Assembly: GCA_958296005.1 (NCBI GenBank)
Contig: CATQHQ010000001.1
Location: 884,134-948,133, forward strand
From: Longimicrobiales bacterium
Lineage (GTDB): Bacteria; Gemmatimonadota; Gemmatimonadetes; Longimicrobiales; Gaopeijiaceae
Reading direction: 5' to 3'
DNA length: 64,000 bases
Under the pieces are notes generated by a model, which did no database searches, was not told the origin of the DNA, and was given only the letters and a program-made list of their open reading frames with translations. The position numbers were made by a program, and so were the translations under genes. This document shows positions 53,351 through 55,591 of this stretch, piece after piece (the first letter of the stretch is position 1; each line of letters opens with the position of its first letter).

Positions 53351-53434
53351 CGGAGGCGGAGGGACTCGAACCCCCAAGTGCTTGCGCACGCCGCATTTCG
53401 AGTGCGGTGCCTTACCAATTAGGGCTACGCCTCC
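53351..53434 (-). tRNA. tRNA-Ser(CGA)
   Basis: Complement GGAGGCG...CCGCA-CTCGAAA-TGCGG... variable arm GTGCGCAAGCAC ...GGTTCGAGTCC...CGCCTCC. Confidence 0.93.
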
Positions 53435-53454
53435 CAAAGCGTCGTGGAGCAAAA

Positions 53455-53528
53455 TCGGGGCGCCCGGATTCGAACCGGGGACCTCTGCGACCCGAACGCA
53501 GCGCTCTACCGGACTGAGCCACGCCCCG
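53455..53528 (-). tRNA. tRNA-Pro(CGG)
   Basis: Complement CGGGGCGTGGCTCAG...CTGCG-TTCGGGT-CGCAG...GGTTCGAATCC...CGCCCCG. Confidence 0.95.
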
Positions 53529-53558
53529 ATGAAGTTGATCTGACTAGAACCGCGCTCA

Positions 53559-53674
53559 CGGACGGGGTGGGATGGGTCGGCTTTGCCGGCCGTCTCCGGG
53601 GTTCGGTCCTGGTGGCCCGACCCCCTTCGGCTCGAAAGATCGAATCCCACTCCCCCCGTTTCGCTGGCGCTCAA
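53559..53674. repeat. 116-bp inter-tRNA element, copy 1 (flanked by copies of the tRNA-Ser(GGA) 3' end)
   Basis: cggacggggtgggat at 53559 recurs exactly at 53675 (period 116); interior matches copy 2 at 97 of 116 positions by hand count. Confidence 0.85.
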
Positions 53675-53759
53675 CGGACGGGGTGGGATTCGAACCCACG
53701 CGGGCAAGATGCCCACACGATTTCCAGTCGTGCGCCTTAAGCCACTCGGCCACCCGTCC
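53675..53759 (-). tRNA. tRNA-Ser(GGA)
   Basis: Complement GGACGGGTGGCCGAGTGG...CACGA-CTGGAAA-TCGTG...GGTTCGAATCCCACCCCGTCC. Confidence 0.95.
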
Positions 53760-53775
53760 TTGTTCTCGGCTTCAG

Positions 53776-53891
53776 CGGAGGGAGTGGGATGGGCCGGCGT
53801 TGCCGACCGTCTTCGGGGGTCGGTCCTGGCGGCCCGACTCCCTTCGGCTCGAAAGATCGAATCCCCCTCCCGCCACTTCGCTTCGCGTCAG
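53776..53891. repeat. 116-bp inter-tRNA element, copy 2 (flanked by copies of the tRNA-Ser(GCT) 3' end)
   Basis: cggagggagtgggat at 53776 recurs exactly at 53892 (period 116); same length and order as copy 1. Confidence 0.85.
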
Positions 53892-53976
53892 CGGAGGGAG
53901 TGGGATTCGAACCCACGTGGCCCAATGGACCAACGCCTTAGCAGGGCGCCGCTTTTAGCCGCTCAGCCATCCCTCC
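53892..53976 (-). tRNA. tRNA-Ser(GCT)
   Basis: Complement GGAGGGATGGCTGAGCGG...GCGCC-CTGCTAA-GGCGT...GGTTCGAATCCCACTCCCTCC. Confidence 0.95.
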
Positions 53977-53979
53977 AAG

Positions 53980-54052
53980 TAGCCCCGCCTGGGCTCGAAC
54001 CAGGACTCTTCTGATCCAGAGTCAGACGTGTTGCCAGTTACACCACGGGGCT
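53980..54052 (-). tRNA. tRNA-Gln(CTG)
   Basis: Complement AGCCCCGTGGTGTAACTGGC...TCTGA-CTCTGGA-TCAGA...GGTTCGAGCCCAGGCGGGGCT. Confidence 0.93.
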
Positions 54053-54067
54053 ATCAAGCTGCTTCAG

Positions 54068-54140
54068 AGCCACCGGTCGGACTCGAACCGACGACCCCGT
54101 CATTACGAGTGACGTGCTCTACCAGCTGAGCTACGGTGGC
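54068..54140 (-). tRNA. tRNA-Thr(CGT)
   Basis: Complement GCCACCGTAGCTCAGCTGG...CGTCA-CTCGTAA-TGACG...GGTTCGAGTCCGACCGGTGGC. Confidence 0.95.
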
Positions 54141-54197
54141 GATCTTCTCCTTGGGTTCGCAAGGACCCACTCCGGCCCGACGCGCGGGACTCGAAAG

Positions 54198-54270
54198 TGG
54201 AGCCGAGGGGAGTCGAACCCCTGACCTCAGCGTTGCGAACGCTGCGCTCTCCCAACTGAGCTACGGCCCC
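54198..54270 (-). tRNA. tRNA-Ala(CGC)
   Basis: Complement GGGGCCGTAGCTCAGTTGGGAGAGC...CAGCG-TTCGCAA-CGCTG...GGTTCGACTCCCCTCGGCTCC. Confidence 0.95.
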
Positions 54271-54282
54271 GGAAACCAGAAG

Positions 54283-54356
54283 TGGGCGCGACAGGACTCG
54301 AACCTGTGACCTCCACGATGTCAACGTGGCACTCTAACCAACTGAGCTACGCGCCC
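54283..54356 (-). tRNA. tRNA-Val(GAC)
   Basis: Complement GGGCGCGTAGCTCAGTTGG...CCACG-TTGACAT-CGTGG...GGTTCGAGTCCTGTCGCGCCC. Confidence 0.95.
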
Positions 54357-54401
54357 GGCCAAAACCCAACGCTCCCACTTCCTCCGCCCCCGCATCCCAA
54401 A

Positions 54402-54475
54402 TGCGCCCGGGAGGACTCGAACCCCCAACCCCCTGATCCGTAGTCAGGTACTCTATCCAATTGAGCTACGGGCGC
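54402..54475 (-). tRNA. tRNA-Arg(ACG)
   Basis: Complement GCGCCCGTAGCTCAATTGG...CCTGA-CTACGGA-TCAGG...GGTTCGAGTCCTCCCGGGCGC. Confidence 0.95.
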
Positions 54476-54480
54476 TCGGA

Positions 54481-54564
54481 TGCCCACGACAGGACTCGAA
54501 CCTGTACGTCCTTTCGAACACTGGTCCCTCAAACCAGCCTGTCTACCAATTCCAGCACGTGGGC
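54481..54564 (-). tRNA. tRNA-Leu(GAG)
   Basis: Complement GCCCACGTGCTGGAATTGG...CTGGT-TTGAGGG-ACCAG... long variable arm ...GGTTCGAGTCCTGTCGTGGGC. Confidence 0.95.
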
Positions 54565-54585
54565 AAGCTTCCGTTCCGGCTCAAA

Positions 54586-54670
54586 TGCTCGGGGAGGGAC
54601 TCGAACCCTCACGGGGTTAACCCCCACAGGATCCTGAATCCTGCGCGTCTACCAATTCCGCCACCCGAGC
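54586..54670 (-). tRNA. tRNA-Leu(CAG)
   Basis: Complement GCTCGGGTGGCGGAATTGG...CAGGA-TTCAGGA-TCCTG...GGTTCGAGTCCCTCCCCGAGC. Confidence 0.95.
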
Positions 54671-54696
54671 TCGGCCGGTGTACCGGCCCGTCGCAG

Positions 54697-54769
54697 TGGA
54701 GCCGAGGGGAGTCGAACCCCTGACCTCCTGAATGCCATTCAGGCGCTCTCCCAACTGAGCTACGGCCCC
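54697..54769 (-). tRNA. tRNA-Ala(GGC)
   Basis: Complement GGGGCCGTAGCTCAGTTGGGAGAGC...CCTGA-ATGGCAT-TCAGG...GGTTCGACTCCCCTCGGCTCC. Confidence 0.95.
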
Positions 54770-54831
54770 AGCAGTGCGAACGCGAGCCTACAACTGCTCC
54801 ACGACCCTGATTGTCAAAGAAACTCCAGCAG

Positions 54832-54906
54832 CGGGGCTGACGGGACTCGAACCCGCGGCCTCCGGTGTGACAGACCGGCACTCTAACCAAACTGAGCTAC
54901 AGCCCC
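54832..54906 (-). tRNA. tRNA-Asp(GTC)
   Basis: Complement GGGGCTGTAGCTCAGTTTGG...CCGGT-CTGTCAC-ACCGG...GGTTCGAGTCCCGTCAGCCCC. Confidence 0.95.
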
Positions 54907-54934
54907 AACTAGCGGGGTCCGTCCGGCGACCCCA

Positions 54935-55006
54935 TACCCTCACGGGGAATCGAACCCCGATCTCCACCTTGAAAGAGTGGTGTCCTGACCGTTAGACGAT
55001 GAGGGC
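54935..55006 (-). tRNA. tRNA-Glu(TTC)
   Basis: Complement GCCCTCATCGTCTAACGG...CCACT-CTTTCAA-GGTGG...GGTTCGATTCCCCGTGAGGG. Confidence 0.94.
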
Positions 55007-55043
55007 GCACCGTTGTTTCCCGGCAACCGCCTCCCGGCGACAG

Positions 55044-55117
55044 CAGGCCCGGAGGGACTCGAACCCCCAACCGCCGGTTTTGGAGACCGGTGCTCTACCA
55101 AATTGAGCTACGGACCT
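55044..55117 (-). tRNA. tRNA-Trp(CCA)
   Basis: Complement AGGTCCGTAGCTCAATTTGG...CCGGT-CTCCAAA-ACCGG...GGTTCGAGTCCCTCCGGGCCT. Confidence 0.95.
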
Positions 55118-55128
55118 TTGGCTCTGAA

Positions 55129-55201
55129 TGGCCAGGGACGGAATTGAACCGCCGACACCGCGATTTTCAGTCGCGTGCTCTACCAACTGAGCTACCTGGC
55201 C
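55129..55201 (-). tRNA. tRNA-Phe(GAA)
   Basis: Complement GGCCAGGTAGCTCAGTTGG...CGCGA-CTGAAAA-TCGCG...GGTTCAATTCCGTCCCTGGCC. Confidence 0.95.
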
Positions 55202-55224
55202 CTGGACTCCTAGGGACCCGCCGA

Positions 55225-55247
55225 CAAAAAACCGACCGAGTCCGGTC
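55225..55247 (-). terminator. Candidate Rho-independent terminator downstream of initiator tRNA-Met
   Basis: Minus strand GACCG-GACT-CGGTC hairpin followed by GGTTTTTT. Confidence 0.45.
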
Positions 55248-55359
55248 CGGCGACGGAACCCGAAGGTTCCCCGCCAGCGGCTTGGCCGGCTTACGCCGAA
55301 ACCGCCGCCCGAAGGCGACGCTCCCGGAGCGCCTTTGGGATATGTGTCCGTTGGAGTCA

Positions 55360-55433
<74 letters not shown>

Positions 55434-55591
55434 ATAGGACGGTAATGATAGGAAGACTGCCACCGGGCGTCAACGGGCGGAACCGCGCCTGCCAACCCCT
55501 CGCCTCCCACCGTTCCTTGCGCGGCGGGTTACCTTGAGAAGAAAGGGTCAGGGGCGCATCCCCAAGCCAACCGAACGGGAGCACGGTAACG

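Follow-up and report, generated by a model that had tools for sequence, protein, structure and literature searches.

The tRNA cluster studied here raises the question of why two of its spacers should each terminate in sequence copied from the 3' end of the preceding tRNA gene. In the window, the whole 64,000-nucleotide stretch of Longimicrobiales DNA that was analysed, CGGACGGGGTGGGAT occurs at 53559-53573 and again at 53675-53689, and CGGAGGGAGTGGGAT at 53776-53790 and again at 53892-53906, with a period of 116 in both cases. The resulting 116-bp units are spacers between tRNA genes of one cluster, lie directly 3' of their tRNA-Ser genes, and carry the tRNA-end copy (S2) as their own 3' end. 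On the tRNA strand, the order is tRNA, linker, S', a core of three hairpins and S2, the latter comprising the end of the T-loop, the 3' strand of the T-stem and the 3' strand of the acceptor stem of the adjoining tRNA (Table 1). The two units are identical at 97 of 116 positions, or at 84 of 101 when the 15-nt ends are left out; each end has no mismatches with its own tRNA-Ser and two with the other. A sequence-only reading had already described the exact period, the 97 identities (counted by hand) and the match of each flank to its own tRNA, and these stood up to the coordinates (53559/53675 and 53776/53892), a recount and the mismatch counts, respectively. A third copy in the same genome, on another contig, follows tRNA-Ser(TGA), and its S2 matches that tRNA. 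At curated thresholds, Rfam returned no family besides tRNA for the stretch in the window; matches to sX4, YrlA and a plastid UTR were rejected, being located on tRNA sequence. Open reading frames on the plus strand extend over the spacers as well as the tRNAs.

Table 1. Positions of the two spacer elements, their parts and the associated tRNA genes in the window.
Feature	Position	Strand	Remarks
RtT-like element 3' of tRNA-Ser(GGA), from the base adjoining the tRNA through the last base of S2	53559..53674	-	R1 match 53559-53659, 78.5 bits
RtT-like element 3' of tRNA-Ser(GCT)	53776..53891	-	R1 match 53776-53876, 77.3 bits
S2, first element: duplicates the final 15 nt of tRNA-Ser(GGA)	53559..53573	-	0 mismatches
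S2, second element: duplicates the final 15 nt of tRNA-Ser(GCT)	53776..53790	-	0 mismatches
S', first element: imperfectly complementary to S2 and to the tRNA 3' end	53640..53660	-	Inverted repeat I2, 86%; pairs with S2 in the fold of the isolated element
S', second element	53857..53877	-	Inverted repeat I4, 86%; pairs with S2 in the fold of the isolated element
Core, first element: P2-P4 hairpins with the GCCGA...GGAGAC tandem-GA arm	53574..53639	-	
Core, second element	53791..53856	-	
tRNA-Ser(GGA), source of the first 3'-end copy	53675..53759	-	ARAGORN, Rfam
tRNA-Ser(GCT), source of the second 3'-end copy	53892..53976	-	53892 by Rfam, 53891 by ARAGORN
17-tRNA cluster holding both elements	53351..55434	-	Pro(CGG) and Ser(CGA) downstream of the elements

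We consider it fairly probable (roughly 65%) that the spacers are copies of an RtT-like, tRNA-linked RNA repeat with a tRNA-derived 3' end, which would be released by tRNA processing and spread by duplication and copying. On sequence grounds, the elements are RtT-like relatives of E. coli rtT and not formal members of RF00391.

The repetition of the tRNA end does not stem from chance. In a survey of 475 tRNAs from homologous clusters in relatives, the last 14 nt of the tRNA itself recurred downstream, with at most one mismatch, in 30 cases; the controls gave 3 cases upstream and an expectation of 0.8 with swapped tRNAs. These numbers, together with the mismatch counts against own and other tRNA, rule out a chance origin. 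Ser or Pro tRNAs accounted for 29 of the 30 downstream cases, and the remaining one, at a Met tRNA, was an artefact at a contig end. When 154 genomes of the order were searched with a covariance model built from 12 copies and containing no enteric sequence (R1), 59 had a match at E<=0.01; 58 of these belong to the family of the window, and one, weakly matched, lies outside it. With a second model (R2), also built from these copies only and without enteric sequences, 346 genomes of the phylum yielded 50 with a match at E<=0.0001; every one of the 50 belongs to the same family, and R2 carriers were absent from the rest of this phylum sample at that threshold. The 114 distinct copies tabulated come essentially all from one Gemmatimonadota family, and the adjoining upstream tRNAs are Ser (four anticodons), Pro (CGG, TGG, GGG), Cys, Leu (TAA, CAA) and Arg (CCG). 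The core thus recurs beyond the window beside other tRNAs with a matching duplication. The expectation that copies always lie 3' of such a tRNA describes the usual case, with S2 mostly matching the local tRNA at 15 of 15 positions, and fails for some copies that have no adjoining tRNA. Tandem arrays of the element are common. When GTDB contigs were searched for the core pattern near tRNAs, the named records were Gemmatimonadota MAGs, some labelled Longimicrobiales. Spread to other phyla was dismissed, since the non-Gemmatimonadota matches to the exact pattern that were checked have no tRNA nearby; the best of them under the model (L233, 25.4 bits) was rejected because inspection revealed no S2-like tRNA end. 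Viral carriage was likewise set aside, as neither of the two viral pattern matches has a tRNA.

Isolated elements are predicted to fold as a closed multibranch structure consisting of P1 (S' with S2), P2, P3 and P4. In an alignment of the 114 copies, which was fitted to the model and therefore leans towards the structure, 81.3% of the cells were paired, compared with 66.3% after shuffling and at most 60.5% after sliding, and the covariation score was 0.356 versus 0.129 (shuffled) and at most 0.130 (slid). P3 and P4 were paired in 93% and 97%, respectively, with many two-sided changes; P1 was paired in 69-78% and P2 in 56-86%, and the S'/S2 pairing is only partly conserved. P3 bears a conserved tandem-GA arm (GYC-GA ... 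GA-GAC), and unpaired motifs are conserved across genera. In P4, 24 G-U versus 4 A-C combinations favour the tRNA strand as the one that encodes an RNA; with all helices pooled, the figures are 89 and 96, so that the evidence for the strand is weak and clear only in P4. The spacer interior is a covarying folded structure, with the E. coli tyrT rtT repeat as its closest known relative; neither point had been seen in the sequence-only reading.

This interior speaks against a simple duplication of the tRNA 3' region, be it segmental or in tandem, with conversion between the copies and a spacer that has no function. Such a duplication would account for the identity of S2 with its own tRNA, for linker sequence repeated after S2 and for the arrays. 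It accords poorly with the strong P3/P4 covariation and the unpaired motifs conserved across genera (albeit in an alignment fitted to the model), with the similarity to E. coli rtT and with the occurrence of the repeat at only certain tRNA types in the cluster survey, and we regard it as highly unlikely. Segmental duplication with conversion had been one of two proposals of the sequence-only reading; the tandem arrays and the repeated linker fit the duplication, the likeness of cores within a genome fits spread or conversion, and what the proposal leaves unaccounted for is the covarying folded interior.

The Rfam RtT model (RF00391) matched both window copies over their full length and on the right strand with 17.6 and 15.8 bits (E 0.75-2). 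The gathering score of 45 bits was not reached, and formal RtT membership therefore fails; under strict filters (E<=0.1), RF00391 matched 0 of 58 genomes of the family. When R2 was run on 45 kb of E. coli, the four tyrT/tyrV rtT units ranked first with 23.6, 18.8, 18.1 and 17.2 bits, followed by the next match at 8.3 bits; the rough E-values are 0.0009-0.03 in 45 kb, the match is modest, and the four units are paralogues and not four independent tests. R1 also ranked these units first, more weakly (16.6-12.5 bits). The E. coli unit is made up of GGGGAAGGAT (S'), AAGGTTCGA, a YCGAG block, the tandem-GA arm and AATCCTTCCCCCACCACCA (S2), from which it follows that the tRNA-like sequence is broken at the same T-loop position. 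The elements described here likewise lie 3' of a tRNA gene on the tRNA strand, end in a tRNA 3'-end copy and have a common fold with an S'/S2 helix and a tandem-GA arm, a tandem GA motif in RtT having been noted previously (PMC7657543). A passage in PMC4986893 reports that RtT RNA is released from tyrT and other tRNA transcripts, and that it was detected by Northern blot in A. pleuropneumoniae.

For the Gemmatimonadota elements, we propose that each is transcribed as a spacer or trailer of a tRNA precursor, which is probable for the two in the window, given their position between tRNA genes of one cluster and the single promoter-like site upstream of the 17-tRNA cluster. P1 with S2 would mimic the acceptor/T-stem helix of the adjoining tRNA, and tRNA 3' processing would then cut after S2 as it does after the tRNA, freeing an RNA of about 115 nt by analogy with what has been reported for E. 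coli rtT. S'/S2 mimicry combined with release by tRNA 3' processing is the most economical inference. The pairing constraint, conversion or the two together may keep S2 identical to its tRNA.

Another possibility is a bistable switch, in which the acceptor 5' strand would pair with S1 in the cloverleaf or else with S2, S1 then being bound by S', and the element would control tRNA folding. In the predicted equilibrium, the acceptor 5' strand pairs with S2 in 60 of 61 precursors, which lie on average 11.5 kcal/mol below the separate tRNA and element, and the minimum free energy structure of E. coli tyrV-rtT has the same exchange. A control with shuffled middles, however, retained the pairing in 58 of 61 precursors (mean -6.0 kcal/mol), so that much of the effect reflects the energy model and base composition, and the fold leaves out tertiary stability and co-transcriptional order. 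We therefore regard control of tRNA folding as very improbable.

With regard to the spread of the RtT-like repeat, units would multiply through tandem duplication and through copying between tRNA 3' ends. An empty and a filled site exist within one genus: tRNA-Ser(GGA) is directly followed by TTGGAAGGTACCCGAG in L035/L063, and in L097 by a unit of 194 bp, which has S2 at its end and precedes TTTGTAGGTACCCGAG. Linker sequence is often repeated after S2, with a variable duplicated length. In L060 and L069, tRNA-Ser(CGA) is separated from the element behind it by a terminator-like hairpin that has a T-rich tail, and the start of this sequence recurs after S2; these two copies past a terminator-like hairpin indicate that not every copy need share the transcript of its tRNA. 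The repeated linker and the tandem arrays point at least as much to tandem duplication as to insertion. Core likeness averaged 0.72 between different tRNAs of one genome and 0.64 between the same tRNA in different genomes. On a core tree with few columns, genome labels changed 72 times (96 when shuffled) and tRNA labels 45 times (56 when shuffled), and both signals imply that inheritance at a tRNA and copying between tRNAs have each left a trace. Spread between tRNAs within one genome is thus supported by the comparison of cores, and autonomous mobility of the element is not shown.

An alternative is that the unit is a tiny mobile DNA element, either a cargo-less integrative unit or a MITE-like insertion, with S1 and S2 as attachment-site or target duplications and a recombinase acting in trans. 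The empty and filled sites fit this explanation, as do the cores common to unlinked tRNAs of a genome, the copies located in truncated tRNA fragments (L132, L113:3078) or in the 5' half of a tRNA-Pro (L169), each between GA and AT, and the copies that lack an adjacent tRNA, some of which may, however, stem from islands inserted between tRNA and element (L175). Set against MITEs and transposon-derived elements, with their terminal inverted repeats and target duplication of constant length, S'/S2 form a subterminal inverted repeat, an empty site exists, and the duplicated length varies. With the genes around other copies listed, no recombinase was identified, the repeat after S2 often includes the linker and sometimes the terminator-like hairpin, tandem arrays are present, and the covariation indicates a selected fold, all of which make such a mobile element unlikely in our view. 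Of the other proposal of the sequence-only reading, duplication of a tRNA 3' end by a tiny mobile unit, the duplication and an empty site in a congener are thus retained, and a recombinase and a target duplication of fixed length were not found.

Several loci show further arrangements. In L175 (G012:C410, 5110-8549), a full tRNA-Ser(TGA) is followed by about 3 kb of other sequence, a tRNA-Ser 3' half that starts in the anticodon loop, and an RtT-like element, an arrangement that suggests insertion of an island into the anticodon loop of the tRNA. The core in L169 (G133:C241, 12400-12518, minus strand) lies within a duplicated tRNA-Pro(GGG) 5' half, between CACCTGA and ATGGGGTTCAG and not in the T-loop. 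L166 (G087:C57, 1035-8198) contains tRNA-Ser(GGA) with an element, about 7 kb of genes and a second element in the same direction, the end of which nearly matches the same tRNA-Ser(GGA). The element in L123 (G085:C347, 898-1014) has no tRNA and overlaps an open reading frame that, by eye, would encode a DUF262-like protein. G094 has a two-unit array after Ser-TGA and another after Ser-GCT, each on its own contig (L082, L102); the arrays are alike unit by unit, and the two tRNAs have identical 3' ends.

A more general and tentative proposal is that RtT-like elements may form a class of small mobile RNA-coding repeats, in which the core enters tRNA copies at the T-loop (A58^A59), adopts the tRNA 3' end as its own, passes from one tRNA gene to another in the same genome and is set free when the tRNA is processed, with E. 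coli rtT as one enteric branch. The idea that a tRNA T-stem invariably forms the left flank of the core was rejected, as only some copies keep the T-stem. The absence of carriers in the remaining phylum sample leaves the link with Gammaproteobacteria unexplained.

Among known systems, the elements resemble the tRNA-gene attachment sites of integrative elements in that an inserted stretch has a tRNA 3' end at either side of it. They differ in their 116-bp units without an integrase, which are too short to hold one, in their covarying fold, in the variable length of the duplication and in the tandem arrays. With tRNA 3' external transcribed spacer RNAs of the 3'ETS-leuZ type, they share the possibility that a tRNA precursor's trailer has a role as an RNA. 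Unlike the present elements, such spacer RNAs are not known to carry a tRNA 3'-end copy. The elements are most like RtT RNA (RF00391; E. coli tyrT/tyrV rtT, small RNA RttR): both lie 3' of tRNA genes in the same direction, end in a tRNA 3'-end copy that starts in the T-loop and has a complementary S', continue from GGTTCGA into a YCGAG block, and have a tandem-GA arm and tandem arrays. Unlike E. coli rtT, they occur in another phylum and behind Ser, Pro, Cys, Leu and Arg instead of Tyr tRNAs, score below the Rfam threshold, have an S2 without CCA and different P3/P4 hairpins, and measure about 115-195 bp versus about 178. Knowledge of E. coli rtT comes mainly from the tyrosine tRNA operon and from gammaproteobacterial relatives; here, the same architecture is present in a family of a distant phylum, behind at least five tRNA types and usually with the 3' end of the own tRNA. 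Because tRNA type and core vary separately, this material makes comparative tests possible, both of the role of an RtT-like RNA and of the way in which an adjoining repeat acquires a tRNA 3' end and keeps it identical.
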